DNA of 32,923 nucleotides from Bacteroidota bacterium (GCA_020047755.1 JAIFNL010000148.1:1-32923), one strand, 5' to 3'. Positions 7,979 through 25,602 are shown, counted from the first letter of the stretch. The notes: generated by a model from the letters alone, not told the origin. Program-made: numbers and translations.

Positions 7979-9580
7979 TTAAAATCCTTTCAAATCCATT
8001 GTTACAGTTGGTATTAATAAAAGTAACCCTAGAATAATTAAAATTGCCATAAATGGAGCAACCCATTTTACCCATTTTTCGTAAGGAATGCGTGCAACTC
8101 CCAAAACACCAATTAAAACGCCCGATGTAGGCGTAATCATATTGGTAAAACCATCGCCTAGTTGGAATGCCATCACAGTTGCTTGTCTCGAAACACCAAT
8201 CAAATCAGAGAATTGCGACATAATAGGTATTGTAAGCGCAGCTTTGGCACTTCCCGATGGAATTGCGAGGTTTAAAAGTGTTTGGAAAAGATACATCATA
8301 CTTACGGAAGCAATTTTTCCAAAATCGCTCATCGACTGAGACATATAGTAAAGTAATGTGTCTATAATTTGACCATCTTGTAGCACCACAATTATTCCTC
8401 CTGCAAGTCCAACTACTAAGCCTGCCGACATAATGTCTTTTGCACCAGTGATAAAATCCGTTGTTATCTTATTTGCAGAATAATTCATTGATATACCTGA
8501 TAACAAACCCATTGCTAAAAATAAAGAGGCTATTTCTTTCACATACCAATCATACGCCATAACGCCTACTAGTAATAAAAAAATAGTAAATAATAAAATG
8601 TTTAGTATAAAAAAATGTACTGATTTTCGCAAGGATACAATACTCAATAGAATAAATAATCCGGTCAAAATAGGGAAGACAGGGAAAATACTCACTGATT
8701 TTCCAATTTTTAACTCAGAAAACGGAAATAAATACGAATAAATTAAAAATATTACGGTAATAAATGCAAAGCTAAACCAAGCACTTTTGGGTGTATGAAA
8801 TTTTGTAGTTTCGATATCTGAATTTCCTTTTTCACGCCAATAAGCATCATCGGTGTAAACTATTGATGTTTCAGGATTTTTCTTTACTTTTCGTGCATAG
8901 TTTAAGATGTAAGAAAAACCTACAATATTGATTACTAACCAACAAAATACTCTATATTCAATTCCTGAAAACAGAGGAATATCTGATAACCCTTGAGCTA
9001 TTCCGATTGTAAAAGGATTGAGCAACGCTCCAGCAAATCCTAAACCTGCTGCTACAAAACACATTGAAACTCCAACAATTGAATCATAACCCATGCTGAT
9101 AGATAAAGGGATAAAGATGATAACAAATGCAATAGTTTCTTCGCTCATTCCGAAAATAGCACCAAATAGGCTAAACATGAGCATAATGAGAGTTATAATG
9201 ATATTATCAACGCCTATTGGTTTTATTAATTTGTTGTTTTCTAGTTTTTTAGAAAATGAAAGAAAGGAATAAATCCCTACATCTATTGATTTGCTTTCGT
9301 TCATTATCCAGAATGCTCCACCTATTATTAGTATAAAAACAATGATGTTTGATGTATTTACAAAGCCATCAAAAAATGCCGAAAGAATTTCAATCGTCTG
9401 TGGATTATTTTCGGTATAATGGAATGAATTATTTACTATCACCTCGCGCTCTGTTCCACCTACCGAAATTTTTTCTCGGTCGAAACTACCGCCCGGAATA
9501 ATCCATGTTAGAATTGCCGAAATTACAATTATAGTAAAAACAATGACATAAGTATGTGGTATATTTCTTTTTTTCTTCAT
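7979..9580 (-). CDS. YfcC-family inner-membrane carrier (DcuC/PF03606-like)
   Basis: A 533-residue polytopic membrane protein of the YfcC family in the C4-dicarboxylate carrier/ion-transporter superfamily. The first membrane segment is about residues 10-30 (VIVFTIIVISAILTWIIPGG), the PGGSFDR turn being typical. About eleven further hydrophobic helices follow, with the conserved stretches GMSEETIAF and GLGFAGALLNPFTIGIAQG in the first half and IPSGSAKAALTIPI and GDGFTNMITPTSG in the second, so both pseudo-symmetric halves are present. Characterised relatives move dicarboxylates, arginine/ornithine or peptides, so the substrate cannot be read directly. It is the last gene of the S51/Sus locus, which suggests uptake of beta-aspartyl dipeptide, arginine or aspartate, or export of a product such as ornithine. 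Confidence 0.88.
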   Translation of the reverse strand: MKKKRNIPHTYVIVFTIIVISAILTWIIPGGSFDREKISVGGTEREVIVNNSFHYTENNPQTIEILSAFFDGFVNTSNIIVFILIIGGAFWIMNESKSIDVGIYSFLSFSKKLENNKLIKPIGVDNIIITLIMLMFSLFGAIFGMSEETIAFVIIFIPLSISMGYDSIVGVSMCFVAAGLGFAGALLNPFTIGIAQGLSDIPLFSGIEYRVFCWLVINIVGFSYILNYARKVKKNPETSIVYTDDAYWREKGNSDIETTKFHTPKSAWFSFAFITVIFLIYSYLFPFSELKIGKSVSIFPVFPILTGLFILLSIVSLRKSVHFFILNILLFTIFLLLVGVMAYDWYVKEIASLFLAMGLLSGISMNYSANKITTDFITGAKDIMSAGLVVGLAGGIIVVLQDGQIIDTLLYYMSQSMSDFGKIASVSMMYLFQTLLNLAIPSGSAKAALTIPIMSQFSDLIGVSRQATVMAFQLGDGFTNMITPTSGVLIGVLGVARIPYEKWVKWVAPFMAILIILGLLLLIPTVTMDLKGF

Positions 9581-9726
9581 TTTTTTAGCTTTTATAAAAT
9601 AAATTTTACCTATTTTTTATATTTATTTATGTATTTTTTATAATAATTAAATATTGAATTTGTCTTAAAGTCTTCTATTTTTTTTATGAATAAATATATT
9701 TTTAATTTTAAAATTAATGCTTAAAA

Positions 9727-10605
9727 TTATTTTTTAAAATCTTGTAAGGTGAAATTATCACCAGGCAAATAAACACTAAGCTGTATATTTTCTGCACCCA
9801 AAAGACCGTTTACTATTTTAGTTTCGGCTGTAATATGTTTTAAAACAATAATTTGGCTTTCACCTAGTATTGTTACTTTTTTATTTTGTATGAGGATTGC
9901 TGTTGCCTCGTCTATTCCAACACAAATTTCTAATGGGTTTTCTAAGCAAGTGGTTATTAGTCTATTCATTCTCATTCGCTTTACAAAATGCTGATCCACT
10001 ATAATTGAGTTGCATAGCCCAAGACCTTCGCCTATTTGTATATTATTGGCTTCGATAGTTCTATAATCGCCAGTATATTCTTTGTGCTTCAGTTCGTTAC
10101 CAGTTATCATTTTTTTACTCATCACTGCGGCGCCAGCACTTGTGCCAGCTATAGTTGCGCCATTTTTATAGGCTTGCTTTATAGCTGTATGTAATTTGGT
10201 ATTTTTTACAATTTTCATAAATTTATTTTGGTCGCCACCAGAAATATAAATTAACTTGGCATTTTCTATTGAATCTAATTTTGACTTTGTCATGTCGTTG
10301 TTTGTTTCAAAATTCATCGAAGATATATTATTTATACCCAAATCGATAAATTGTTTACACGAGTAAAAAGACGCAGTATCAATTGATTCGCTTGCCATGG
10401 GTAGGACGATGCCATAACCGCCTTTGTCTAAGGTTGATATTTCTATTAAGCTCCAGATTAGTTTTTTTGAGCGTTTTCCTCCACCTATGATAAATAATTT
10501 TCCTTGCTTAATTTCGGCTGAATTTGTTTGTTTTTTTTCAGTTTTTTTACATGAAAATAAGCTTAAAATTAGAGATAAAAGAATAAGTATTGAAGTCTTT
10601 TTCAT
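9727..10605 (-). CDS. cphB: Cyanophycinase-family peptidase (S51), lipoprotein
   Basis: A 292-residue peptidase of family S51. The signal peptide ends in a lipobox (LFSC, Cys19), so the enzyme is anchored to a membrane facing the periplasm or outside. Catalytic features: GGGKRS (41-46), GGDQ (123-126), nucleophile elbow GTSAGA with Ser156, and DQHF (204-207) with His206 followed by Arg210, Arg212 and Arg215. The D-Q-H-F-x2-R-x-R-x2-R pattern coincides with the residues of Synechocystis CphB known to bind beta-Asp-Arg (Asp172, Gln173, Arg178, Arg180, Arg183, as I recall the structural work). Cyanophycinases release beta-Asp-Arg dipeptides from cyanophycin. It follows the ECF sigma gene by 197 bp and precedes the carrier by 146 bp. 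The S51 family is certain; cyanophycin as substrate is a strong inference. Confidence 0.88.
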   Translation of the reverse strand: MKKTSILILLSLILSLFSCKKTEKKQTNSAEIKQGKLFIIGGGKRSKKLIWSLIEISTLDKGGYGIVLPMASESIDTASFYSCKQFIDLGINNISSMNFETNNDMTKSKLDSIENAKLIYISGGDQNKFMKIVKNTKLHTAIKQAYKNGATIAGTSAGAAVMSKKMITGNELKHKEYTGDYRTIEANNIQIGEGLGLCNSIIVDQHFVKRMRMNRLITTCLENPLEICVGIDEATAILIQNKKVTILGESQIIVLKHITAETKIVNGLLGAENIQLSVYLPGDNFTLQDFKK

Positions 10606-10802
10606 TTGATATAGAATGTATTATACTTAGTTTGATTGTTTATTTAGTGTCGGAAAGAAAATTCATATTTTGCGCTATTTTAAAATATCTTATAATATGC
10701 TGTTTTCATCCTAACACTATTTAGCAAAAATTGAGTAAAATCTTGCCTTATATTATTTAAAACACTTTAAGTACTACATGCCCTTAAAAAAGACGTGAAT
10801 TT

Positions 10803-11402
10803 TTATAGATATTCATTTAAAAGTGAGATGCAAAATAAAAGAGGAAATAATATTTCATTGCTTAAAGCTGCTCGTAACTCTTTTAATGCCAATCGGATAT
10901 GACTTTCTATTGTTTTTTCTGAAATATTTAATTTTTCTGATATTTCTTTGTATGATAAGCCATCTTCTCTGCTTAAAACAAAAATTTCTTTTCGCTTTGT
11001 AGGAAATTTTGCAACACATTTATCTATACGCTTTTTCATGTCTGATAAAATAATATCATTTTCTGTCTTGTCATAAATTTCATCAAAATAAATTTTTAGG
11101 TGTTCTCTATAAGCATTTTCATTTAATTTTTTGCGATGTTTATTAAAAATAGAATTTTTTGCAATTGTAAATAAAAAGGAGCTAAATGATTGTTGGCTAT
11201 TTAGTTTTTTGCGAATTTCCCATATTTTTGCAAAAATATCTTGAACAAGTCCCTCTGCATCTTCTTTAGTTTTTAGGTATTTGTAAGCAAAATAATAAAG
11301 CTTTGAACCGTATTTAAAATACAGAATTTCAAAGGCTTTATTGTCATCTTTTTTTAGACGTTCGAGTAAATCAAAATCTGTTTCTATTAATTTATTTTCC
11401 AA
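10803..11402 (-). CDS. ECF RNA polymerase sigma factor
   Basis: A 199-residue sigma-70 family protein of the extracytoplasmic-function group found in Bacteroidota SusC/SusD loci. Region 2 spans about residues 21-90 (DNKAFEILYFKYGSKLYYFAYKYL, then DAEGLVQDIFAKIW for -10 contact). Region 4 spans about 125-178 with a helix-turn-helix (LSYKEISEKLNISEKTIESHI). Such factors are held by a FecR anti-sigma factor until SusC signals substrate binding. The only FecR here (20661-21665) is encoded nine kilobases away at the other end of the locus, while this gene sits inside it between iadA (105 bp upstream) and the lipoprotein S51 gene. The last 20 residues form a hydrophobic tail (ILFPLLFCISLLN), which is unusual. 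Confidence 0.93.
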   Translation of the reverse strand: MENKLIETDFDLLERLKKDDNKAFEILYFKYGSKLYYFAYKYLKTKEDAEGLVQDIFAKIWEIRKKLNSQQSFSSFLFTIAKNSIFNKHRKKLNENAYREHLKIYFDEIYDKTENDIILSDMKKRIDKCVAKFPTKRKEIFVLSREDGLSYKEISEKLNISEKTIESHIRLALKELRAALSNEILFPLLFCISLLNEYL

Positions 11403-11449
11403 AGGAAAAGCTGTGAGGTTTTGAAAAAAGTATGTTATTTTATCAAAAA

Positions 11450-11457
11450 CAAAAATA
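11450..11457 (-). promoter_or_regulatory. Possible -7 element of the sigma factor gene
   Basis: TATTTTTG on the minus strand matches TAnnTTTG and lies 47 bases upstream of the ATG. No TTTG is seen at the proper -33 distance. If real, the sigma gene has a basal promoter of its own inside the operon. Confidence 0.3.
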
Positions 11458-11507
11458 CTAAAATTATGATAATAAATTAAGTTTTTGCTTAAAAAAAGGA
11501 AAAATAG

Positions 11508-12671
11508 TTATTCGAAAGTTCCTTTTTTTATTAAAATGTTATTTTTCAGCATTATGCTGCCACGAGAAAAAACACTGTTTATTGAAAAATCGGGGTTCAA
11601 TAGCACAAAATCGGCATCTTTTCCGATTTCAATTTTCCCTTTATTGGTTAATTTTAAAATTTCAGCCGGATTAGAAGTAATAACTTTTAGGGCAATTTCG
11701 AGTGGTATTTTTTCAATTAATACAGTGTCGCGCATTTCATCGAAAATGGATTTTGGAAGTCCTACTTCGAGGCGAATTAAGTTCCCTTTTTCGTCAAAAT
11801 CGGGTAATGAGCCAATCCCATCTGACGTCATATTAATATTTTCTATTGGAACGCCACTATTAAGTAATTCGGCAATTGCTTTTGATGGTTTTATTTCGTA
11901 TTCCGGAAAATATGGATACGACGAAGCTGTTAAATCAATGTATCCTTCTTTTCCATATTTTTTTGCATCTTCAAAGATATAATGATTTCTGTTGCAATGT
12001 GTTGGTAGAAATTGTTTGAATTTTAATTCGCTTTTTGCTACGGCATCAATTATCGGTTGAAACGGTTTTTTTGCATCGCCCATGTGTATATTTGCAATTC
12101 CGGCTTTCCCTCCAAGCATGCCACCCACACGAGCCTGCGATACTATTCTAATTAGTTCATTTACAGTGGGACACGAGCTTCTATGGTCGGAAAGGGCTAT
12201 TTCGCCAATTCCTATTACTTCATCAATTATTGCTAAATCTTTAGCTACATCACCTGTAATTGTTGGTGTAGGCACTTGATATGAGCCTGTATAAATCCAT
12301 GCCGAAACTCCTTCTTGCTTGAGCGCTTTTGCTTTCATCAAAACACTTAAAGGAGAGCGAGTTACACCATCTGTACCTAAACAGCCAACAACCGAAGTTA
12401 CACCGCCTAAAATCATTTGACTGAGCTGAATTTCAGGGGTTCGGCTCATAGGTCCGCCTTCGCCTCCTGCACCTGCTATGTGTACATGTGCATCAATTAA
12501 GCCCGGTATGAGTTTTTTTCCTTTCGCATCAACTATTTTTATGTCAAATTGCTTTAGCGAATTACTTGATATCTTGTCTTTTATGGCTACAATTTTTTCA
12601 TTTGCTACTAAAATATCTTTCTTTCCAATGTAGCAAGGTGCGTAAACATCTGCGTTGGTTATTAATAACAT
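11508..12671 (-). CDS. iadA: Isoaspartyl dipeptidase (beta-aspartyl peptidase), M38 family
   Basis: A 387-residue amidohydrolase close to E. coli IadA, which hydrolyses beta-aspartyl (isoaspartyl) dipeptides in the cytoplasm. No signal peptide is present. Metal and substrate residues: H62 and H64 (DAHVH), E71 in GGEGGPMSRTPE, the SDHRSS motif (161-166), H196 (NIHMGD), H225 (THCNRN) and catalytic D284 (TSDGIGS). At the place of E. coli Lys162, the carboxylated lysine bridging the two zincs, this protein has E157 (GEIALSDHR), so a Glu may bridge instead. The gene begins 12 bp after the secreted S51 peptidase stops, which implies co-transcription. In context its likely substrate is beta-Asp-Arg from cyanophycin, giving Asp and Arg. 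Family assignment is firm. Confidence 0.93.
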   Translation of the reverse strand: MLLITNADVYAPCYIGKKDILVANEKIVAIKDKISSNSLKQFDIKIVDAKGKKLIPGLIDAHVHIAGAGGEGGPMSRTPEIQLSQMILGGVTSVVGCLGTDGVTRSPLSVLMKAKALKQEGVSAWIYTGSYQVPTPTITGDVAKDLAIIDEVIGIGEIALSDHRSSCPTVNELIRIVSQARVGGMLGGKAGIANIHMGDAKKPFQPIIDAVAKSELKFKQFLPTHCNRNHYIFEDAKKYGKEGYIDLTASSYPYFPEYEIKPSKAIAELLNSGVPIENINMTSDGIGSLPDFDEKGNLIRLEVGLPKSIFDEMRDTVLIEKIPLEIALKVITSNPAEILKLTNKGKIEIGKDADFVLLNPDFSINSVFSRGSIMLKNNILIKKGTFE

Positions 12672-12683
12672 ATATCTATATTT

Positions 12684-14687
12684 TTACGGGATTATTATTT
12701 TTTTGCATTCAATGCGTTGTTCTTTTTCAACATTAAACTTTGCAAGGTAGAGTCCTTTTGCAATATTTACCGGAAAACTTTCATCACCAGATAAGGCTTT
12801 TGATAAGATGATTTTACCGGATAAATTATAAAGTGAAAATTGATATTTTTCTTTAATTGTTTGAATAGCTATTTGATTATTAAAATATGAAATAGTAAAA
12901 AATGACTTGCTTTTTTCAGGAGTGCTAATACTCGATAAATCAACCATTTCGCCTAATTGATAAGGAATTGACTCGTCGATAAGCGATAAGGTCATGCTTT
13001 CAAAGCCTGCAAAATTAGGATTTTTGTTAGTATCGTCTCCATAAGCTGTTTGCTGAGAAAATCCAGAATTTGTGCCTTTATTTTTTAAAATCATTACTGG
13101 CGAATTGCCATACGCATACAAAAATGGTTTATTTTCGGAGTTTGCTTTATATTTGAAATAGTTGTTTTTATTAAGCCATATTCCATAAGTTAATTTGTTG
13201 TAAATCATGGAGTAAGGAAGCGAAGATGCTGTATTTTCATAATAATCGGCATTTAAAAACATATTTGGTATTATTGCAGTTGTTTTCAATAACTTAAAGC
13301 CTTCTTTGAGTATTATATTTCCTTTATAAGCGGCGTCGATTGTCAAATAATTCTCTACAACCGTATGACCAATGAATCGACTATTGTCGCCAACAAAAGC
13401 AGTAATTATATTTTCTTGTATTTTTTTTGATAATGCTTCGCCGACAGTTCCAGACGAAATGAAATTAAATAAATCGGTATAATTATTTTCTAGAAATAAG
13501 ATTTTTTTTGATTGTGAAATTGTATTTTTGAACGTTTCGTTGTTTGAATTGATAGAAAGAGCCGAAAAAATAGCTACATTATTTGCTCCCAAGTTATTAA
13601 GTGCTAGTTTAAATTCATTTGCTACATTTTGATTGCTTCCGGTTACAATTAAAATTTGGTCAGAAATATTTCCACAAATTGTTGCAAAATCATTTAAAAA
13701 TGCAGTGTTTTCGCTTAAATTATTGCTTCCACTTGCCAAGATGGTGTAATTTCCATCTTCTTTTATAATTTCAGGTGTTGTTTTTTGCGAAAAACCAGTA
13801 ATTTCAGAAGTATTAAAATTGTATGTACAACCTTGTAAAAGTTGTATAATATTCACTGAATCAGCAATTAATTTTGTTTTATTTTGCGAAAAGGTTGTGT
13901 TAGAAAATGCCTTGTAAATATTTACCGAACCAATTCCGAAAACTGTTCCTACTTTATTTTCATCAATTGCCATTGCAGTCATTTCGTCAACACCTAAGCC
14001 TCTAATATTCTCATTTTTAGTAAATTTCCAATTTGCCATAAAAGCCAAGAGACGTGGAAAGCGTGCGCGAATTGTAAAATGTGTATCAAACACATAATCA
14101 GGAAAATAGCCCAAGAAATCATTGGCAAGTGTTATATCGGAATTCATAGGATTTTTTAAACATTCGTCGGGGTAGGCAGAGCTATTTTGAGCTGTGTAAA
14201 CAATTTCGGAAAGGATAGCTAAGCCGGCTGACGTTCCACAAATAACACCTCCCGAATTGAATTTGTCAGCTAAGGCTTGGTGTGTTTTAGTATTTTTGTA
14301 AATGTTATAATAGTTATATTGGTCTCCACCTTTCAAAAAGAGAACATCGTAAGTCATCAAAGCATCGTAAGTAGATTGAGAATTGGCTATTTCATTGGTA
14401 CTTATGTCGAAATTTACGGCTGAAGCTGCACCGCATTTTGCTACAAAATAATCGGGAAGCCATGATGTTGAAGTTCCAAATGCAATAATTGCCACTTTTT
14501 TATTTGCCGATTTATCGATAGCCCATTTGTATGCTTTACTATTCCAGCTATTATTTGTTTCTTTTTCAGAACCTCCACCTATTAAAAGCAGTTTTCCATT
14601 TTGAGAAAAACAATAATAATTTATAAAGATTATGAATATTAAAAGGGAGTATATTTTTTTCATAAAATAAAATTTATAGGTATTCAT
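12684..14687 (-). CDS. cphB: Secreted cyanophycinase-family peptidase (S51) with degenerate second S51 domain and T9SS sorting tail
   Basis: A 667-residue secreted peptidase. A signal peptide (to about SQ29) is followed by an S51 domain at about 31-290: GGGSEKE (37-43), GGDQ (120-123), nucleophile motif GTSAG with Ser153, and D201-T-H-F with R207, R209 and R212. The binding pattern matches cyanophycinase except that Gln173 of CphB is Thr202 here. Residues about 313-510 repeat the fold (KILFLENNYTDLFNFI against VLFLKGGDQYNYYNIY) but carry VGDNSR where GTSAGL stands, so this half is probably non-catalytic. The last 75 residues (LYNLSGKIILSK...GLYLAKF) are a T9SS type A sorting domain, predicting export to the surface or medium. 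The ATG at 14663 (MKKIYSLL) is an equally good start. It lies 12 bp before iadA. Confidence 0.9.
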   Translation of the reverse strand: MNTYKFYFMKKIYSLLIFIIFINYYCFSQNGKLLLIGGGSEKETNNSWNSKAYKWAIDKSANKKVAIIAFGTSTSWLPDYFVAKCGAASAVNFDISTNEIANSQSTYDALMTYDVLFLKGGDQYNYYNIYKNTKTHQALADKFNSGGVICGTSAGLAILSEIVYTAQNSSAYPDECLKNPMNSDITLANDFLGYFPDYVFDTHFTIRARFPRLLAFMANWKFTKNENIRGLGVDEMTAMAIDENKVGTVFGIGSVNIYKAFSNTTFSQNKTKLIADSVNIIQLLQGCTYNFNTSEITGFSQKTTPEIIKEDGNYTILASGSNNLSENTAFLNDFATICGNISDQILIVTGSNQNVANEFKLALNNLGANNVAIFSALSINSNNETFKNTISQSKKILFLENNYTDLFNFISSGTVGEALSKKIQENIITAFVGDNSRFIGHTVVENYLTIDAAYKGNIILKEGFKLLKTTAIIPNMFLNADYYENTASSLPYSMIYNKLTYGIWLNKNNYFKYKANSENKPFLYAYGNSPVMILKNKGTNSGFSQQTAYGDDTNKNPNFAGFESMTLSLIDESIPYQLGEMVDLSSISTPEKSKSFFTISYFNNQIAIQTIKEKYQFSLYNLSGKIILSKALSGDESFPVNIAKGLYLAKFNVEKEQRIECKKIIIP

Positions 14688-14835
14688 GATAAAAAAATAG
14701 CTATCCTTGAAATTACAAACGCTGATGTTTTTTTGCTCTGCTTAGAATAATTTATATTTGATTACACTATTTCGGGCAAACCAACTTACGCTTGTACTTC
14801 AAGGAATAGCAAAAAGTACTAGATTAGAAGTAGAA

Positions 14836-15750
14836 TTATTTTATATACACTTTAATGTTGTCAATACCAAGCTCATCGCCACCAGGTGCTGGAGTTTTGA
14901 GGCGAAATGCGATATATACTTTTTTTCCGTTAAACTCGGATAAGTTCACCTCATGAGTTTGAGGACCTGCGCCCGGATTTGTTGCAATTTGGCTTGCTTG
15001 CTCTTGTGTTACCGATTTTATCATTTTTCCTGTTGTAGCTTTGCAACCAGCAATATCTTGTGTGGTAGTAGATATATATACTTCATAATCATCGAGATAG
15101 TTTCCAGATTTGGTTAAAGACATCGATTGCCAATTTAAAAAAGTATTATTTACAATGTTTATACCAGGTAAAATCATCCAGTCGTCGGCTCCAACTGCAG
15201 CGTCAACATTCCAAGAGGTTGCTGCTGCTACGTTGCTTCCGCCAGTTCCAAAGCGTGAACTTTTGTAAACTTTCCATGCTTTATCAAAGAATTCAGAATC
15301 GTCAGGTACGCTGGCATCGTTGTTAATTACTACCCAAGAGGAGGGTAAATTGTCGCCAGCAGTATTAAAACTTTCAAAGTTTTCTGTAAATAGTTCGCCT
15401 GATTTTATAATGATGTCTAATGTAAATTCTGCGGCTTTTACATTTGAAGTTATTGTAAGTTTTACGGTAAAAGTACCAGTAGCACTGTAAGTATGCTTAG
15501 GTGCTTTTTCATTTGAAACTGGGCTTCCATCGCCAAAATCCCATGCGTAAGTTGCTGTTCCTGCATTAGTTGGAACAATCGACTCGTCTATAAATGTTAT
15601 TTCTGACGGAGCTATAAAATTATTGCTTGATGTTAACGAAAATTTTGCTACAACGCTTGCTTCCGGAGTTTCGGATTCTTTTTCGCAAGCTACAAAATTA
15701 AAAATTAGGGCTAATCCTAAGAATAAACGAATGATTCGATTTTTTTTCAT
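14836..15750 (-). CDS. PKD and choice-of-anchor J-type surface lipoprotein
   Basis: A 304-residue lipoprotein encoded just after susD, the position where Bacteroidota loci place surface substrate-binding proteins. The signal peptide ends in a lipobox (FVAC, Cys22), and the acidic run EKESE after Cys resembles a surface-export signal. A PKD domain covers about 33-116, with the hallmark WDFGDG at 70-75 and HTYSATGTFTVKLTI. Residues about 120-304 form a beta-sandwich of the cleaved-adhesin/choice-of-anchor J kind (ENFES, then SSWVVINND, DDWMILPGI, and IAFRL near the C-terminus). No catalytic motif is visible. I infer a non-enzymatic role in holding the polymer or its fragments at the surface. 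It is 148 bp upstream of the secreted S51 gene. Confidence 0.8.
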   Translation of the reverse strand: MKKNRIIRLFLGLALIFNFVACEKESETPEASVVAKFSLTSSNNFIAPSEITFIDESIVPTNAGTATYAWDFGDGSPVSNEKAPKHTYSATGTFTVKLTITSNVKAAEFTLDIIIKSGELFTENFESFNTAGDNLPSSWVVINNDASVPDDSEFFDKAWKVYKSSRFGTGGSNVAAATSWNVDAAVGADDWMILPGINIVNNTFLNWQSMSLTKSGNYLDDYEVYISTTTQDIAGCKATTGKMIKSVTQEQASQIATNPGAGPQTHEVNLSEFNGKKVYIAFRLKTPAPGGDELGIDNIKVYIK

Positions 15751-15870
15751 AACTATGTAATTATTTAAGTTTTATTTTTTTGATAAAACACTTGATTAAT
15801 TATTAAATTTCTAAAAAGTTGAATGTATTTTAAAGGAATTAATTTTAAATTATAACTATTTTTTTATCAA

Positions 15871-17226
15871 TTAAATACCGTCATTTGTATCAATTTCGGA
15901 CTGTGGGATAGGAAAATACCAACCCGCTTCTTTTAACGTTCCAATATCCGGTAAAACTTGATTTATACGGTCGGTGCGTCTAAGGTCAAACAACCGATTT
16001 CCTTCAAAGGCTAACTCCAAATTACGCTCTTTTTCAATTGCTAATCGGAATTCTGCTTGATTGGTTATTGTTGTTGAGCTTAAGTTAGCCAAACCCGCTC
16101 TGTTTCGTATTTTATTGAGTGCAGTAAATGCTTCACCGTTAGCTATATAGTTTATTTCATTTGAAGCTTCGGCTTTGATTAAATACATTTCGGCAAGTCG
16201 TAAAATGATGATATTGTCTTTATTTTTCACATTATCAGTGTATTTGGCGCAATACCAATCGTCGCCTTTTGAGCCTACGTAATATTTGACTGTTGAGTTT
16301 TTGCGAAGGTCGCCCGATTCAAAATCGGTGGCTAATGTTTGTGTTCTACTCAAATTTTTCCATACTGCTACTTCAAATCGTCCAACAGGAGTAAGCCAAT
16401 CGTTCATCAAATTTGTAGCATCTTGTGAGTTTGCAAAATCAATTTGGAATATAATTTCTTGATTATTAAACGATTCATTGAAAATTGATGCGTAATTACT
16501 CATTTCTAAAGTATATCCCATGGCTATCACTTCGTCTGCTTTTTGTACTGCTTTTGCCCAATCTTTTTGGTAGAGATAAACTTTTGCTAATAAGGCTTTT
16601 GCAGCACCTTGATTTGCATAAACCGAATTTCCTCTGCCTACTAGATATTGTTCTGCTATTTGTAAATCGCTGATAATGAGTGAATAAATTTCTGATTGTG
16701 GCGAAACCGGAATCGATAAGGTTTCTGGGCTTGCATCGGAAATCGGTTTTACTCTCTTGGGAATATTACCAAAGTAACGAACCAAATTGAAATAGTGAAA
16801 TGCCCGTAAAAAGTGGCATTGTGCTAAATAGTTATTCTTTTCAGCTTCACTAATTCCTTTTACGCTACTTATTCCTTCGATGATATAATTTACCAGATTA
16901 ATTCCTCGATAGGAGGCATTCCATAGCGAGGTTACGTAGGCATTTGAGGCTTGAATACTATTTTCGCTCACTTCTCGATACTCTAATTTGCTGCCTCTTG
17001 CAATGAGGTTGTCTGCTGCTAAATCGGCAAAAACAATTGCATCGGTAGCTATCGAACCCGATTGTAATGAGTTATAAGCTCCTATCAACGAGCCATCTAA
17101 ACCTTTTTTGGAGGTTAAAACCTCTTCGCCAGCTATAGAGTCGTAGGCTTCTACTTCAAGAATTTCGCATGACTGAAATAAAATAAGAGCGAAGAAATTT
17201 AAAATGAAAATTATTTTTGTTTTCAT
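15871..17226 (-). CDS. susD: RagB/SusD-family outer-membrane binding lipoprotein
   Basis: A 451-residue SusD-type lipoprotein, the surface lid of a SusC transporter. The lipobox is FQSC (Cys20), followed by acidic residues (EILEVE) as in surface-exported lipoproteins. SusD-like segments: YNSLQSG near 52, LWNASYRGINLVNYII around 100, and the TPR-like helical core (YLAQCHFLRAFHYFNLVRYFGNIP; AAKALLAKVYLYQKDW). The C-terminal region carries the conserved LRLAEMYLIKAEA, LNKIRNRAGL, IEKERNLELAFEGNRLFDLRR and YFPIPQSEI. It is shorter than polysaccharide SusD proteins (about 500-600 residues), like members that bind small ligands or peptides. It starts 111 bp after susC. Family is certain; the ligand is inferred from the enzymes next to it. 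Confidence 0.95.
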   Translation of the reverse strand: MKTKIIFILNFFALILFQSCEILEVEAYDSIAGEEVLTSKKGLDGSLIGAYNSLQSGSIATDAIVFADLAADNLIARGSKLEYREVSENSIQASNAYVTSLWNASYRGINLVNYIIEGISSVKGISEAEKNNYLAQCHFLRAFHYFNLVRYFGNIPKRVKPISDASPETLSIPVSPQSEIYSLIISDLQIAEQYLVGRGNSVYANQGAAKALLAKVYLYQKDWAKAVQKADEVIAMGYTLEMSNYASIFNESFNNQEIIFQIDFANSQDATNLMNDWLTPVGRFEVAVWKNLSRTQTLATDFESGDLRKNSTVKYYVGSKGDDWYCAKYTDNVKNKDNIIILRLAEMYLIKAEASNEINYIANGEAFTALNKIRNRAGLANLSSTTITNQAEFRLAIEKERNLELAFEGNRLFDLRRTDRINQVLPDIGTLKEAGWYFPIPQSEIDTNDGI

Positions 17227-17337
17227 ATCTATTTTTTGTATTTCTTAATTTTAATCTTATTGTTTTTTAAAATTTATTTAATTAAATCTAAATTTTGATA
17301 ATATTAATTACAAAATAAAATCGATTTAATTATGCAA

Positions 17338-20300
17338 TTAAAAGTCGATGTTTGCTCCAAATAAAATAACTCTTGGGTGTGGAAAAGTGAAAAAATCAGT
17401 TCCCATTCCAAATTCAAAACCTTGTCCATCGTAGTTTACTTCTGGGTCAAGACCTTGATATTGAGTGAGAGTAAATAGATTTTGACCTTTTACATATACT
17501 TTAATATTAGAGATGCCTTTTAGTTTATCGAGTAATGCTTGAGGAAAATTATATCCCAAAGTAGCTTCTTTTAAGCGAAGGTATGAGCCATCTTCCATGT
17601 AACGAGTCGATTTTCGGTTGTTGTATGTTCCACCAAAACGAGGAATTTGGGTAATATCTCCCACGTTTTTCCATTGTGTAAGAACGGTAGCTAGTTGATT
17701 ATCAGATTCTCCGTAAGCATTATTTTCTAAGTATTGGCGAGTTCCGTTGTAAATATCATTTCCATATGAAAATTGAACGAACAGTCTAAAATCGAATCCT
17801 TTGTAGGAAATAGAGTTGGTTAAACCGCCTGTAAATAAAGGGTTTGGATCACCTACTACAAATTGGTCATTTGCATTTATTAGATTGTCGTTATTAAAAT
17901 CGGTCAAAACTAAATCGCCTGTTGAAGGGTCAACTCCTTTTGATTCATACATATAGAAAACGCCTAGTGGCTGTCCGGCTATAATTGCATTGTTGCCACG
18001 CGAGGTCGAATAAATTGGCTGGTCGTTGTACAATTCTAACACTTTATTTTTGTTAAATGAAATGTTGAAACTGCTTGTCCATTTCAATTCTTTGTCGATA
18101 TTTGTGGTATTTACTGTAAATTCGTAGCCTTTGTTTTCGATTGAACCCACATTTGTCATGTAGGTAGTGAATCCAGAACTACCAGGAAGTGGTCTTGGAA
18201 GTAGTAAATCGGTAGTGAGATTGTAATAATACTCAGCAGAAATGCCAATTTTGCCTTTTAAAAATTCCAAATCAATGCCATAATTGAAATTTGATGTTGT
18301 TTCCCATTTCAAATCTGGATTTGGAATCTGTTTTGGTGCTAAACCTGGCAAGCTATTGTAATTTACACCAGTTATGTATAGATTTTGATAGCGATTATTA
18401 CCAATTTGGTCATTTCCAGTTAGCCCATAGCCCACTTTCATTTTCAAATCGCTGAAAATTCTCTGATTTGCCATAAATGATTCCTCAATAACACGCCAAG
18501 CCACAGAAACCGCGGGAAGCATAGCATAGCGGTTGTTAGAACCAAACTTCGACGAACCATCGGCACGTAAGCTAAATTCTAATAAATATTTATCAGCTAA
18601 ATTGTATTTTACTCTACCAAAATAAGATATGATTCCTTCGTCAATTGCATCTGTTTCGGCTTGTTCAATATTTCCTGCCGAATTTATGTATTCAGGATAA
18701 ACAGAAGGAAAATTTGTTGCATAAATGTAACTGTAACGTTTTTTTATTATTTCAAAACTATATCCTAAAAGAAACTCAAAATTATGAATATCTCCTATTT
18801 TTTTATCATAATTTAAAAGTAATTGTTGAGATGTTTTCGATACATTTGAGCGACCTTCGATAATCATTCCGTTTGATTGCGCACCTAAGCGAGTGGTAGT
18901 AGGCTCAATACGGCGTTCGTGCAAGTTGTAATAATCCAAACCCCATTGATTGCGAAGTGTTAAGCCTTCTGCAATTTTATAAGTAAATTCTAGGCTCGAC
19001 ATATTTCTTACTGTTAATGCCTCCGTTGTTGATTCTAAGGCTGTTGCCACAGGATTTGAAAAATATCCATTCTCTGAATAATTTCCTAATTCATCGTAAA
19101 CCGGATAAATGGGAGGTAACGAAATAGCATTGGGCAATACTCCGTCTATCTCCTCGTCACCGCGCACACGGTCGTTTGATGAATTTGTCAAACTATTTCT
19201 AAATGAGAGACTTAGTTTATCATTTAATTTGTGTTCTACATTGGTTTGGAGCGAAAACTTTTTATAACCAGTTCCGATTAAAATTCCTTCTTGGTTTAGA
19301 TAACCTACTGAAATATAGAACAATGTTTTGTCGTTTCCGCCGCTAAATGAGAGTTCGTTGTTGCTCATAGGCGCAACTTCAAAAACCTCTTCTTGCCAGT
19401 TTGTGTTATAATTAGTTGTAAGATTCGTTACGAATGAAGGATTAAATGTGCTAACATATTCTTTCCATTGTGTAGCGTCCATTAAATCAAGGCGTTTCCA
19501 TTCTTTTTGAAAACCGTAGTACGAACGAAAACTAATCGCCGATTTTCCGGCTTTTCCTTTTTTGGTGGTAATTAAAATAACGCCATTGGCTGCTCTTGCA
19601 CCATAAATAGCTGAAGCTGAGGCATCTTTTAATATTGTTATCGATTCAATATTGTTGGGATTTATGTCCATGCTTGCGTCAATTCCTTGCCCGCCAAAGC
19701 CTATTTGGCTATAATTTCCGGTTGTCATTGGCACACCGTCAATTACATAAAGTGGTTGAGTTCCAGAGTAGATAGAAGCAGTTCCTCTAATTTTGATGCC
19801 AATAGCCGAACCTGGTGTTCCTGAGTTTTGAAGTATTTGAATTCCAGAGGCTTTCCCATTTAAAGCACCTTCTAAGCTATACGAGGCAGTTTCTTGAAGT
19901 TCTTCGGAGTTGATGTTTTCGACAGAACCGGTCAATAGTTTTTTGCTGCTAACTCCGTAGCCTACTACAATCACTTCATCTATGCTCATGTTAAACTCTA
20001 TCATCTTAATTGATAGTGGGTTACTTGCTTCTTCAACTGCAATTTCTTGAGTTTTGAAACCAAGAAATGAAAAAACTAAAACGGTATTTTTAGATGGAAC
20101 CTCAATTTCAAAATATCCATTTGCATCGCTTAGTGTTCCATTTTGTGTTCCTTTCTCAACAATAGAAACTCCGGGTAAGCTTTCGTCATTCGAATCATAA
20201 ACTTTTCCGGTAATTTTTATATTCTCTTGTGGTGTATTAAGCGTTGATTTTATAATTGCTTTGGGATACAGAATTATTTGTTTATTAATTAGTTCGTAGC

Positions 20301-20622
20301 TTATGTCGGTACCTTTAAATAGTTGGTTTAGAATATCAACAATGCTTGATTCTACTGCCTTTACATTCACTTTTTGCTTGGTATCTATTAGTGAATTGTT
20401 GTACATGAAATAAAATTCCGATTTTCGTTCTATTTCCGACAATGCTTTCTTTAAGCTCGTATTTGTAAGATTTATACTTAGTTTTGTTTGTTGTGCATAG
20501 TTATTTGTTGCTGACAAACTGCCATAACTTAGCATCAAAAATACAAAAATCCCTTTGATTAAAAAGGAGAAATTTGGAAGCTTGAGCTTAAACTTAAAGG
20601 GGGTAAATTTTTTATTTTTCAT
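17338..20622 (-). CDS. susC: SusC/RagA-family TonB-dependent transporter with STN signalling domain
   Basis: A 1094-residue TonB-linked outer-membrane transporter. After a long signal region (to about residue 44) comes an STN domain (about 48-115, LSINLTNTSLKKALSEIERKS), the part that contacts a FecR anti-sigma factor in the periplasm. A carboxypeptidase-regulatory-like domain follows (about 132-212, ITGKVYDSNDESLPGVSI), then the plug (about 218-350; VIVVGYG, GIKIRGTASI, PLYVIDGVPM) and a 22-strand barrel ending in ILFGANIDF, with aromatic C-terminal residue. It starts 38 bp after fecR, so the two are almost certainly co-transcribed. The STN domain makes it a regulated uptake system rather than a constitutive one. 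The expected cargo is an oligopeptide, because no glycan enzymes accompany it. Confidence 0.97.
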   Translation of the reverse strand: MKNKKFTPFKFKLKLPNFSFLIKGIFVFLMLSYGSLSATNNYAQQTKLSINLTNTSLKKALSEIERKSEFYFMYNNSLIDTKQKVNVKAVESSIVDILNQLFKGTDISYELINKQIILYPKAIIKSTLNTPQENIKITGKVYDSNDESLPGVSIVEKGTQNGTLSDANGYFEIEVPSKNTVLVFSFLGFKTQEIAVEEASNPLSIKMIEFNMSIDEVIVVGYGVSSKKLLTGSVENINSEELQETASYSLEGALNGKASGIQILQNSGTPGSAIGIKIRGTASIYSGTQPLYVIDGVPMTTGNYSQIGFGGQGIDASMDINPNNIESITILKDASASAIYGARAANGVILITTKKGKAGKSAISFRSYYGFQKEWKRLDLMDATQWKEYVSTFNPSFVTNLTTNYNTNWQEEVFEVAPMSNNELSFSGGNDKTLFYISVGYLNQEGILIGTGYKKFSLQTNVEHKLNDKLSLSFRNSLTNSSNDRVRGDEEIDGVLPNAISLPPIYPVYDELGNYSENGYFSNPVATALESTTEALTVRNMSSLEFTYKIAEGLTLRNQWGLDYYNLHERRIEPTTTRLGAQSNGMIIEGRSNVSKTSQQLLLNYDKKIGDIHNFEFLLGYSFEIIKKRYSYIYATNFPSVYPEYINSAGNIEQAETDAIDEGIISYFGRVKYNLADKYLLEFSLRADGSSKFGSNNRYAMLPAVSVAWRVIEESFMANQRIFSDLKMKVGYGLTGNDQIGNNRYQNLYITGVNYNSLPGLAPKQIPNPDLKWETTSNFNYGIDLEFLKGKIGISAEYYYNLTTDLLLPRPLPGSSGFTTYMTNVGSIENKGYEFTVNTTNIDKELKWTSSFNISFNKNKVLELYNDQPIYSTSRGNNAIIAGQPLGVFYMYESKGVDPSTGDLVLTDFNNDNLINANDQFVVGDPNPLFTGGLTNSISYKGFDFRLFVQFSYGNDIYNGTRQYLENNAYGESDNQLATVLTQWKNVGDITQIPRFGGTYNNRKSTRYMEDGSYLRLKEATLGYNFPQALLDKLKGISNIKVYVKGQNLFTLTQYQGLDPEVNYDGQGFEFGMGTDFFTFPHPRVILFGANIDF

Positions 20623-20660
20623 AAAGTTTTATGGTTTAATTAAACAACGTTTTTTTTATT

Positions 20661-21665
20661 TTATTTATTTTTATTTTTTTTTGAGGATTTATTTTCTGAA
20701 ATATGAATTTTTTTATTTTCGTATTTAATCACTAACGACTCCGTAATTCTTTTTAAATTATTCAGAATTTCGTCTATTTGTTCATTAGTAATTGTAAAAG
20801 TATAGAAGTATTTTTCATGCAATGTTTTTTCTAAATAAATATCAACATCATACCTCCGTTCTAGTTCTCGGCAAACTTCAATAAACGATTTATTTTCGAT
20901 GATTAACTTGCCTTGTTTCCAAGATACAAAGCGGTTTACATCTACTTTATCGAGCACTAAATTTTTACTTTCTGTATAATATTTGGCTTGCTGATTAGGG
21001 GTTAAAATTGCTTTTCGGTATATTTTATCCTCGTTATTTTTTACCTCTACACTTACTTTTCCACTCAAAAGAGTTGTTTCTATAAACGAATCAGATTCAT
21101 ACGATTTTATATTAAAAACAGTGCCTAATACTTTAATATTTAACTTCTTTGTTTTTACTACAAAAGGCTTTTGCTTGTTTTTTTTGACTTCAAAATACGC
21201 CTCGCCTTCAAGTTTTATTTCTCTCAAATTTTCTTCAAACTCTTGAGGATAAATGATTTTAGAATCGGAGTTTAAGCTTACTGCCGACCCGTCAGGCAAA
21301 ATAAATTCGATACGCTCCCCGCGCATTGTTTTTTTCTCAAGCCAAACTAATTCGGTCTTTGAATTGTAAATAGCTGTATAATAATAAATTGCACCAAGCA
21401 GCAGTGGAATTGTAAAAATTGCAGCATAGCGAAGAAAACGATTTTTAAAAATTGAAAATTTTGCTTTTTCAGAGTTCAGTTGCAAATCAATTTTGCGCTT
21501 AATTTCTTCTAAATTATTAGTTTCCAATACTTTATTTGTTTCATTCCACTCTTTTTCGAGCATCTCAACCGATTCGATGGAGTTAAAAACTTCATCTTTT
21601 TCATTTTCGGAAATAATGTCCCAATAAAACCGCGCAAATAAATTTTTATTCAATTTTTGTTTCAT
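20661..21665 (-). CDS. fecR: FecR-family anti-sigma factor
   Basis: A 334-residue single-pass inner-membrane protein. The cytoplasmic N-terminal part (1-78) would bind the sigma factor. A membrane helix follows at about 79-98 (RYAAIFTIPLLLGAIYYY). The periplasmic FecR domain lies at about 112-215 (RGERIEFILPDGSAVSLNSDSKIIYP, then EIKLEGEAYFEV and IKVLGTVFNIKSY), and the C-terminal DUF4974-like domain at about 250-320 is where the STN of SusC usually docks. It is the first gene of the locus, directly before susC. No sigma gene lies beside it; the locus sigma factor is at 10803-11402. The partner pairing is therefore an inference from co-location. No clear -33/-7 promoter was seen upstream, as expected if an ECF promoter is used. 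Confidence 0.93.
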   Translation of the reverse strand: MKQKLNKNLFARFYWDIISENEKDEVFNSIESVEMLEKEWNETNKVLETNNLEEIKRKIDLQLNSEKAKFSIFKNRFLRYAAIFTIPLLLGAIYYYTAIYNSKTELVWLEKKTMRGERIEFILPDGSAVSLNSDSKIIYPQEFEENLREIKLEGEAYFEVKKNKQKPFVVKTKKLNIKVLGTVFNIKSYESDSFIETTLLSGKVSVEVKNNEDKIYRKAILTPNQQAKYYTESKNLVLDKVDVNRFVSWKQGKLIIENKSFIEVCRELERRYDVDIYLEKTLHEKYFYTFTITNEQIDEILNNLKRITESLVIKYENKKIHISENKSSKKNKNK

Positions 21666-22332: not shown

Positions 22333-25300
22333 ATGTCTGATAAATTCTTTCCTACGAGTTTGAAAAAGCTCTTAAATCTTGTGTTAAAGTCTGAAAATCA
22401 AATTCTTGGAATACATAAATCCTTGTGGTTTGTGCCTGAGGCTCAAAATAAATTGAAATTGCAACGCTTTGGACAACAGTTAGATACGCCAATTGGTGTC
22501 GCTGCAGGACCTCACTCGCAGTTGTCGCAAAACATAGTGGCTGCTTGGCTTTGCGGAGCGCGTTATATTGAGTTGAAAACAATTCAAACCCTTGATGAAT
22601 TGGAAGTTGCAAAGCCTTGTATCGACATGCAAGACGAGGGTTATAATTGCGAATGGTCGCAAGAATTGAAGATTCACCAGTCGTTTGATGAATATTTGAA
22701 TGCTTGGATTTTGATTCACATTTTGAACCACAAACTATTTGGAAACAAGCCAGTTGCTACAATTTTCAACATGAGTGTGGGTTATAACATGGAAGGAATT
22801 TTGAAAGAAAACGTACAATGGTTTTTTGAAAAAATGAACGATGCTTCGGCTGAATTAGCATTGAAAATCAATGAGATAAAAGAAATTTACCCAGAAGTTG
22901 CACATTTGAATATTCCTGCTAAAATTTCGGACAATATTACACTTTCTACCATGCACGGTTGCCCTGCAAACGAAATTGAAGAAATAGGAATGTATTTAAT
23001 TAAAGTAAAGAAAATTAATACGTTAATTAAATTAAACCCAACTTTGCTAGGCGCAGAAAATTTAAGATATATTTTGAACGAAAAGCTTGGTTTTGAAACT
23101 GTTGTGCCCGATTTAGCTTTTGAACACGATTTGAAATATCCAGATAGCCTTTCGATAATAAAAAATTTGAGAAATGCAGCCAAAGAAGAAAACGTGTTTT
23201 TTGGTTTGAAGCTAACTAATACATTGGAATCCAATAATATAAAGCATATTTTTAGCGAAAACATGATGTACATGAGCGGGCGAGCCTTGCACCCAATTAG
23301 CATAAATGTAGCGCGAAAATTGCAAAATGAATTTGCCGGAACGCTCGATATTTCTTTCGCTGGCGGTGCCGATGCTTTTAATGTGGCGGATATTTTGAGT
23401 TGTGGAATTTCGACAGTTACAGTTTCGTCAGATATTCTAAAACCCGCTGGTTACACGCGTTTAAAGCAATATATTAGTGCAATTGAGGCTGAATTTGAAA
23501 AATATAAAGCTGCTGATTCGCATGAATTGGTTTTGCGAAAAAGTCAGTTAAATGATTTAATTTCAGGAAGTTTGCTTAATTTGAATAAATATGCCGACGA
23601 AGTGCTCCAAAATAAAGCTTACAAACGCACAAATTTTAGAACACCTAGTATAAAAACAACTCGGAAACTCTCTGATTTTGATTGCATTGCTGCCCCTTGC
23701 GTGGGAACTTGCCCTACGGAACAAGACATTCCTACGTATATGTACCATACCGCAAGAGGCGAGTATGAGCTTGCTTTTCAGGCAATTATGCAAACAAATC
23801 CGTTTCCTAGTTCTACTGGAATGGTTTGCGACCATTTGTGTCAGACGAAATGTACACGCATTAATTACGATAATTCATTGTTAATCAGAGAAGTTAAGCG
23901 ATTTGTAGCAGAGCAAAATCCTGGTAATTTTCAACTTACCAAAGCAAAGCCTAATGGACTGAAAATAAATATAATAGGAGCGGGGGCATCGGGTTTGTCG
24001 GCAGCGTATTTCTTGGCATTAGCGGGCTTTGAAGTTGCCATTTATGAGCAAAAACAAAAAGCCGGCGGCATGGTGGCAGGCGCAATTCCGGCTTTTAGAT
24101 TAAATGAAGATTCGTTTAACTCTGATATTGAGCGTATTGTTGCACTTGGCGTGAAGATTCATTTTAACTACAAAGTTGACAAATCGAACTTTGAAATTTT
24201 GAGAAAACAGGCTCATTATCTTTATATTTCGGTAGGAGCTCAAAAATCTAAACGCTTGAATATAAAAGGAATAGATTCAGAAAATGTAATTGAACCTTTA
24301 CAGTTTTTAGCGGACGTAAAAATTGGCAAAATTAAAAATATTGGCAAACGAATTGGCGTTATTGGCGGCGGAAATACTGCAATGGACACCGTTAGAACGG
24401 CTGCGCGGCTTGCCGGAAAAGACGGAAAAGCTGTGCTGATTTATCGCCGAAGCAAAAAGCAAATGCCTGCCGAATTTGAAGAAATTCAAGCTGTTATAGA
24501 CGAAGGTATCGAGATTTTAGAACTTACTGCACCCGAAGAAGTGATAGCCGAAAATGGTAAAATTAAGGCACTTAGAGTTTCTAAAATGCAGCTCGGACAG
24601 CCCGATGCAAGCGGAAGAGCCGAAGCTGTGAAATTGGAAAATTCGCAGTACGATATTGAGCTTGATGCTCTTATTCCCGCTATTGGACAAGATTTGGATA
24701 TTGATTTTGTTGAAAATCAATATCTTAAAACAAAGCAAAACTCTTACGAAACTCAACTTGCGGGTGTTTACATAGGCGGAGACGCTATGCGCGGCGCGGC
24801 TAATTTGATTAATGCCATAGCTGATGGAAAAAAAGTAGCCCACGAAATTTTTCGCACCGCACAAACAAAAGGAGAGTTAGCCCAATTAGAGCCAAAAATA
24901 AACGATAAAAATACCTTAAAACTTAAAAAAGCTACTCGCAAATTTGGCATTGAACCACACGAAACAAAACTTGAAGATAGGCGAGGTTTTGACTTGATTA
25001 TTAATAGTTTAACTCCCGAAATGGCACAAGAAGAAGCTTCGCGCTGCTTGCAGTGCGACGAGGTGTGTGATGTGTGTGTAAGTGTGTGCCCAAATTTGGC
25101 TAATTTTTCATATCAAATAGAACCAATATTTTATAAACTACCTGAAGTAGAGCAAATTAATGGAGAAATTGTTTTCACTAACGAAGTGCTATTTCAGGTT
25201 GAACAAACACATCAAATTCTGAACATAAGAGACTGGTGCAATGAGTGTGCTAACTGCAATACCTTTTGCCCAACGGCTGATGCGCCTTTTAAAATGAAGC

Positions 25301-25602
25301 CACATATTCATCTATCGGAAGCTAGTTATAATGCTGAAAATGAAGGTTATATGATGCGGAATTTGATGGGAAAAGACGTGTTGATTCATAAATTTGGCGA
25401 AATGGATGAACCCGAAGTTGAAAGTTTAACTTTGTATAATTCGCTTTATACTTATGAAAATGAAGCTTATATAGCTCAGTTTGAAAAAGAGAATTTTAAA
25501 TTGAAACATATCGAATTTAAAATTTCACACTCGCAGAAAGCCGATTTGACACGAGCCGCAAGCATGAGTGTTATTATGCAGGGAGCTAGAGAGTTGTGTT
25601 AG
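22333..25602 (+). CDS. ygfK: YgfK-type multidomain flavin/Fe-S oxidoreductase (annotated elsewhere as putative selenate reductase subunit)
   Basis: A 1089-residue fusion protein like E. coli YgfK. Residues 1-400 form a dihydroorotate-dehydrogenase-like domain (TPIGVAAGPHSQLSQNIV, IELKTIQTLDELEVAKPCIDM). A double 4Fe-4S domain like that of dihydropyrimidine dehydrogenase and GltD follows, with C456-x3-C460 and CDHLCQTKC. Next come an FAD Rossmann motif GAGASG at 549-554 and an NAD(P)H motif GGGNTA at 678-683. The tail holds two cysteine clusters: C905, C908, C912, C915, C919, and C969, C972, C975, C979. These indicate electron transfer from NAD(P)H through flavins and Fe-S clusters to an unknown acceptor. 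In E. coli the gene lies among purine/urate catabolism genes, and the selenate activity is unproven. Here it stands alone with its own promoter and terminator. Confidence 0.9.
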   Translation: MSDKFFPTSLKKLLNLVLKSENQILGIHKSLWFVPEAQNKLKLQRFGQQLDTPIGVAAGPHSQLSQNIVAAWLCGARYIELKTIQTLDELEVAKPCIDMQDEGYNCEWSQELKIHQSFDEYLNAWILIHILNHKLFGNKPVATIFNMSVGYNMEGILKENVQWFFEKMNDASAELALKINEIKEIYPEVAHLNIPAKISDNITLSTMHGCPANEIEEIGMYLIKVKKINTLIKLNPTLLGAENLRYILNEKLGFETVVPDLAFEHDLKYPDSLSIIKNLRNAAKEENVFFGLKLTNTLESNNIKHIFSENMMYMSGRALHPISINVARKLQNEFAGTLDISFAGGADAFNVADILSCGISTVTVSSDILKPAGYTRLKQYISAIEAEFEKYKAADSHELVLRKSQLNDLISGSLLNLNKYADEVLQNKAYKRTNFRTPSIKTTRKLSDFDCIAAPCVGTCPTEQDIPTYMYHTARGEYELAFQAIMQTNPFPSSTGMVCDHLCQTKCTRINYDNSLLIREVKRFVAEQNPGNFQLTKAKPNGLKINIIGAGASGLSAAYFLALAGFEVAIYEQKQKAGGMVAGAIPAFRLNEDSFNSDIERIVALGVKIHFNYKVDKSNFEILRKQAHYLYISVGAQKSKRLNIKGIDSENVIEPLQFLADVKIGKIKNIGKRIGVIGGGNTAMDTVRTAARLAGKDGKAVLIYRRSKKQMPAEFEEIQAVIDEGIEILELTAPEEVIAENGKIKALRVSKMQLGQPDASGRAEAVKLENSQYDIELDALIPAIGQDLDIDFVENQYLKTKQNSYETQLAGVYIGGDAMRGAANLINAIADGKKVAHEIFRTAQTKGELAQLEPKINDKNTLKLKKATRKFGIEPHETKLEDRRGFDLIINSLTPEMAQEEASRCLQCDEVCDVCVSVCPNLANFSYQIEPIFYKLPEVEQINGEIVFTNEVLFQVEQTHQILNIRDWCNECANCNTFCPTADAPFKMKPHIHLSEASYNAENEGYMMRNLMGKDVLIHKFGEMDEPEVESLTLYNSLYTYENEAYIAQFEKENFKLKHIEFKISHSQKADLTRAASMSVIMQGARELC

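Follow-up and report, generated by a model that had tools for sequence, protein, structure and literature searches.

A SusC/SusD locus with S51 peptidases and an isoaspartyl dipeptidase in a Bacteroidales bacterium as a probable cyanophycin utilization locus

Gene content of the locus

Cyanophycin is a nitrogen-rich storage polymer, best known from cyanobacteria, that ordinary proteases barely attack. The nine-gene cluster described here lies in a window of 32,923 nucleotides (the whole stretch of DNA analysed) from Bacteroidota bacterium GCA_020047755.1 (JAIFNL010000148.1:1-32923), which corresponds to contig C46 in a draft genome of 4.64 Mb and 98% completeness. An original prediction, made from the sequence alone, had read positions 7979-21665 as nine same-strand genes combining a SusC/SusD uptake system with cyanophycinases and an isoaspartyl dipeptidase. 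Profile matches located all nine open reading frames where the prediction had placed them, on the minus strand and with the families it had assigned (Table 1). The claim that the locus encodes no carbohydrate enzyme was also borne out, as a Pfam scan of the nine genes found none. Neighbouring genes in the cluster are spaced 12-197 bp apart; of the flanking genes, clpB lies 586 bp away and a divergent ygfK-like gene 667 bp away. In a promoter and terminator scan, promoter-like sites showed no excess over shuffled sequence.

Table 1. Genes of the cluster, listed from the first gene onward (window coordinates; ECF, extracytoplasmic function; T9SS, type IX secretion system)
Feature	Position	Strand	Evidence
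FecR-type anti-sigma factor, first gene of the cluster	20661..21665	-	PF04773 and PF16344 above cut-off
SusC-type TonB-dependent outer-membrane transporter with STN domain	17338..20622	-	TIGR04056 867 bits; PF07660 STN
SusD-type surface substrate-binding lipoprotein (predicted)	15871..17226	-	PF07980, PF14322; SusD tree clade
PKD and Cleaved_Adhesin/choice-of-anchor-J lipoprotein (predicted)	14836..15750	-	PF18911, PF07675, NF038128
P0005, predicted secreted S51 peptidase, CphE-like, C-terminal T9SS-type sorting domain, 667 aa	12684..14687	-	PF03575 42.8 bits
iadA, isoaspartyl dipeptidase	11508..12671	-	TIGR01975 504.6 bits, cut-off 331
ECF sigma factor	10803..11402	-	TIGR02985 156 bits, cut-off 126
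P0002, predicted lipoprotein S51 peptidase, CphB-like, 292 aa	9727..10605	-	TIGR02069 153.9 bits, cut-off 126.6
DcuC/YfcC-family inner-membrane carrier	7979..9580	-	PF03606 323 bits; NF008611 381 bits, cut-off 500

The FecR protein is likely the partner of the ECF sigma factor, whose reading frame has a TTG start as listed, the start codon being uncertain. Both regulatory genes recur in related loci, with fecR adjoining susC in L034, L063, L065 and L071, and the sigma factor gene lying between iadA and an S51 gene in L032, L063 and L172. A PKD-matching protein is encoded directly after susD in most loci that link SusC/SusD to S51 and IadA, and the one found here is probably a surface binding protein. 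Judged from their N-termini, SusD, the PKD protein and P0002 are probably lipoproteins, and IadA, in which no signal peptide was seen, is probably cytoplasmic.

The S51 peptidases, IadA and the carrier

The S51 family (PF03575) is matched twice in the cluster, by P0002 and P0005. The cyanophycinase-type residues that the original prediction had noted, GTSAG and D-x-H-F-x2-R-x-R-x2-R, are present exactly in both proteins. The motifs are GGDQ, GTSAG, DQHFVKRMRMNR and GIDE in P0002, and GGDQ, GTSAG, DTHFTIRARFPR and GVDE in P0005, which carries the pattern DTHFxxRxRxxR. In CphB, Gln101, Asp172, Gln173, Arg178, Arg180 and Arg183 have been reported to be critical, together with Ser132 (PMC3235067). 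P0002 keeps the catalytic Ser and His and the pocket equivalents of all the Gln, Asp and Arg residues listed. P0005 likewise keeps its catalytic and pocket equivalents except for Gln173, which is replaced by Thr, a substitution common to P0005 and the extracellular CphE of Pseudomonas alcaligenes. The third S51 peptidase of the genome, a PepE-like protein encoded on another contig, is without the cyanophycinase pocket pattern, and a PepE-type function for P0002 and P0005 was ruled out by these residues.

P0002 passes the curated cyanophycinase equivalog TIGR02069, is matched by phmmer to the cyanophycinase structures 7uqv, 3en0 and 7uqw, and begins with MKKTSILILLSLILSLFSCKK; it is probably a periplasmic, CphB-like cyanophycinase. 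The AlphaFold model of P0005 has a predicted local distance difference test score (pLDDT) of 89.9, and Foldseek aligned it to the same three cyanophycinases with E values of 1e-15 to 1e-18 and template modelling scores (TMt) of 0.81 to 7uqv and 0.80 to 7uqw. Its C-terminus was matched by Foldseek to the RgpB C-terminal domain and to T9SS sorting domains, and in the profile search the sorting domain falls just under the TIGR04183 cut-off (20.9 against 23 bits). Sequence and model together point to P0005 as probably an extracellular, CphE-like cyanophycinase. Between about residues 305 and 575, P0005 also has what is by fold a second alpha/beta domain, with GDNSR in place of GTSAG. This middle domain may be a degenerate S51 copy; BLAST found no internal duplication and the profile alignment was weak (E 0.0057, probability 6%).

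The presence of an isoaspartyl dipeptidase in the locus, part of the original prediction, is upheld by a score above the TIGR01975 equivalog cut-off and by the retained metal ligands and substrate residues. In an alignment of 14 sequences, H62, H64, E157, H196, H225, E71 and R228 are invariant, and their counterparts in the characterised LmIadA are H64, H66, E159, H198, H227, E73 and R230 (PMC10206079). The carrier scores under the YfcC equivalog cut-off and is assigned to the DcuC family only. It recurs with S51 and IadA even where SusC/SusD is missing (L112, L128, L137, L145 and L147), and the existence of such loci ties it to the pathway. It is predicted to move, probably, the dipeptide or a basic amino acid.

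Co-occurrence of SusC/SusD with S51 and IadA

With SusD as the bait, 60 relatives and 295 genomes of the same order were searched, and the surroundings of the matches were read over up to 20 kb. S51 and IadA genes lie near SusC genes close to that of the window in L032/L033, L034-L037, L063 and L065-L069, and further in L071, L074, L075, L077 and L079; at more distant SusC/SusD loci they are not nearby. The SusC relatives in the linked loci score 750-1213 bits. The SusD tree has 48 rows; the 16 linked ones all belong to one supported clade of 26, and the linkage label requires 4 changes, whereas labels shuffled at random require 13.6 (0 of 500 shuffles gave so few). Across the window's three-row subclade and the 15-row subclade, which are parted, with modest support, by unlinked rows, 16/18 rows are linked to S51 and IadA versus 0/30 elsewhere (Fisher p 7e-11, uncorrected for relatedness). 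The original prediction had named a neighbourhood search as its possible refutation, and it withstood this one. Chance adjacency of susCD was ruled out by the neighbourhoods and the SusD tree.

The two unlinked rows of these subclades come from broken loci. The locus of G163 hits contig ends, and another of its contigs has an S51 gene and the start of iadA; that of G138 is split, with two S51 genes and the carrier on another contig. G179 is too fragmentary to be placed in the tree; it has iadA, S51 and the remainder of susC at another contig end. At the level of whole genomes, a TIGR02069 match was found in 21/21 genomes with a close SusC and in 40/274 others (p 2e-16). The linked SusC/SusD loci are spread over 13 families with gene order shuffled and content constant, and the retention of content despite such widely varying order argues for selection rather than inertia. 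The window's own order is repeated almost gene for gene in L172, from a differently labelled metagenome-assembled genome (MAG). As an independent bait, the IadA alignment was scanned against one genome per species, giving 80 loci; S51 was nearby in 48 and S51 together with SusC/SusD in 21, counts that short contigs depress. The record titles of locus carriers include MAGs from soda-lake sediment, a lake and a sulfidic cave, the habitats being taken partly from isolate names.

One sister group of these loci has a third type of S51 protein, 418-461 aa long and encoded directly upstream of susC, with iadA divergent (L066 13576-14889, L068 13609-14877, L074, L075, L077 and L079). An M28 peptidase gene adjoins iadA in L066.

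Cyanophycin as the probable substrate

No CphA1 was found in this 98% complete assembly (best match 114 bits, cut-off 850), which fits scavenging; a storage role was rejected on this ground. CphA1 is likewise absent from 16/17 genomes with a linked locus. Clustering of cyanophycinase with isoaspartyl dipeptidase in genomes without CphA1 has been described as the mark of a cyanophycin scavenger (PMC10206079). Alternatively, the S51 and IadA proteins could turn over the cell's own cyanophycin, with SusC/SusD an unrelated neighbour. Neighbouring genes need not act together, and the exceptional genome, G196, carries CphA1 and an associated S51 as well as a linked SusC/SusD locus. Those two sets of genes stand on different contigs, however, and with the general absence of CphA1, the retention of the SusC/SusD pair over 13 families through altered gene order and the export tail on one S51, such turnover is extremely unlikely.

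The comparative evidence supports import and digestion of cyanophycin as the most likely function, and we judge it very probable that the cluster is a cyanophycin utilization locus of this Bacteroidales bacterium. Several observations weigh against this assignment. The SusC/SusD pair of G198 is fairly close to that of the window (768 bits), lies outside the two subclades and has no S51 or IadA nearby. P0005 scores below the TIGR02069 cut-off (100.8 versus 126.6 bits) and is classed by this curated score only as a cyanophycinase-like S51 peptidase; of the two cyanophycinases originally predicted, P0002 stands by that measure and P0005 does not, though its pocket residues and fold are kept. The closest solved structure to both S51 proteins, 7uqv, was deposited as 'Pseudobacteroides cellulosolvens pseudo-CphB' and shares the P0002 and P0005 motifs in alignments. 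Its authors reportedly found the protein inactive on cyanophycin, so the residues alone are no proof of activity. IadA is promiscuous, even within cyanophycin clusters (PMC10206079).

The score of P0005, the pseudo-CphB precedent and the broad specificity of IadA would also suit a general scavenging of beta-aspartyl (isoaspartyl) peptides, from aged protein or other isopeptides, in which the S51 proteins are Asp-type exopeptidases and no true cyanophycinases. Such scavenging is nevertheless unlikely, given the arginine-rich pocket that both S51 proteins have and PepE is missing, the match to the published scavenging signature, and the fact that oligomers are the usual cargo of SusC/SusD systems. 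It is quite unlikely that this SusC/SusD clade and its S51 and IadA partners act in the import and degradation of some isopeptide or beta-linked aspartyl polymer that is not cyanophycin; if they did, a widespread group of Bacteroidota 'cyanophycinases' would have a different natural substrate. S51 peptidases are also described as conferring resistance to microcin C (PMC9239234), and P0002 and P0005 might detoxify peptide-nucleotide antibiotics of this kind. Hardly any weight can be given to that proposal, which offers no explanation for SusC/SusD, IadA, the export tail or the cyanophycinase pocket.

Uptake of cyanophycin followed by a two-step breakdown, as originally predicted, thus remains the best reading after the neighbourhood test. 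In the proposed pathway, SusC would engage the substrate and signal through its STN domain to FecR and the ECF sigma factor, which would turn the cluster on. P0005, exported by the T9SS, would trim cyanophycin extracellularly, and SusD, the PKD lipoprotein and SusC would bind the fragments and pass them through the outer membrane. P0002, probably in the periplasm, would complete the breakdown of the chain to beta-Asp-Arg; the DcuC/YfcC-type carrier would take the dipeptide or a freed amino acid over the inner membrane, and cytoplasmic IadA would split beta-Asp-Arg into Asp and Arg. An arginine deiminase-like gene elsewhere in the genome (260 bits, under its cut-off) is a possible route for the released arginine; no SpeA arginine decarboxylase was found above cut-off.

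The kind of locus is known since 2017, and the present case is a well-supported new example. The abstract of Ben Hania 2017 is said to describe a cyanophycin transport complex homologous to polysaccharide utilization loci. PMC10206079 credits that paper with a 'cyanophycin utilization locus' of cyanophycinases, iadA and a transporter in Bacteroidota strain L21-Spi-D4, so the hint of novelty in the original prediction is not supported. Of the features summarized in PMC10206079, cyanophycinase, isoaspartyl dipeptidase, a transporter (SusC/SusD plus the DcuC-family carrier) and the absence of CphA1 are found here. Of the two S51 peptidases reported for Salinivirga cyanobacteriivorans, one carries a Por secretion domain (PMC6243061). 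Going by what the citing papers describe, the L21-Spi-D4 locus of this species resembles the present one in order (Bacteroidales), in its two S51 proteins, one of them Por/T9SS-associated, and in scavenging, whereas the organism belongs to another family. G214 (L067), probably a relative from the Salinivirga family, has an IadA that shares 83% identity with its counterpart in a Salinivirgaceae MAG, and the genome sits in the wider SusD clade; its core content is the same as here but divided over two strands, and FecR, ECF and YfcC genes were not found within the stretch read. In Citromicrobium sp. JLT1363, a TonB-dependent transporter adjoins a cyanophycinase, and cyanophycin uptake was predicted from gene context in 2012 (excerpt of PMC3400609). 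The predicted TonB-dependent uptake is shared with the present locus, but that organism is an alphaproteobacterium, and the excerpt mentions no SusD or IadA.

Storage clusters of CphA1 and cyanophycinase share the S51 cyanophycinase family with this locus, while their cyanophycin synthetase is absent here. With Sus-like polysaccharide utilization loci it has in common SusC, SusD, a surface lipoprotein and FecR/ECF regulation, but peptidases take the place of carbohydrate-active enzymes, and the locus is similar to such systems without being one. A literature search for cyanophycinase with SusD or SusC returned no paper on such a locus beyond those cited. The new element is the clade-level co-inheritance of SusC/SusD with S51 and IadA, which was not found in the cited literature. 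This SusC/SusD lineage, present over 13 Bacteroidales families, is a clade-level marker by which cyanophycin eaters can be sought in metagenomes, and the locus supplies a defined set of proteins for testing a peptide-polymer uptake system. Which organisms consume cyanophycin matters to how nitrogen moves through mats, lakes and sediments.

A different kind of locus joins IadA to an S51 protein of 270-340 aa (DTHF type, low scores) in L104, L107, L109, L110, L113, L116-L119, L123, L124 and L130; neither SusC/SusD nor YfcC was found there within the DNA read, and these loci could belong to a different beta-aspartyl pathway. Relatives of IadA also occur in MAGs labelled Cloacimonadota, Muiribacteriota, Spirochaetaceae, Aminicenantes, Chrysiogenales and Acidobacteria (L117, L124, L127, L139, L150, L158, L169, L174 and L179), by gene transfer or mis-binning. 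The divergent ygfK-like oxidoreductase gene beside fecR (window 22333-25602) is similarly placed in the genus relative G001 (L033 190-3459), whose susC is split into four reading frames (L033 4810-8089) by assembly errors or decay. In the window, the ygfK-like gene is adjoined by a sensor histidine kinase gene with a 7TMR-DISM domain (26185-28227). In G319, from another order, a more distant SusC/SusD pair adjoins an S51 gene, a YfcC-type carrier and another S51 gene (L227 8479-17221), an arrangement that possibly arose by independent recruitment.

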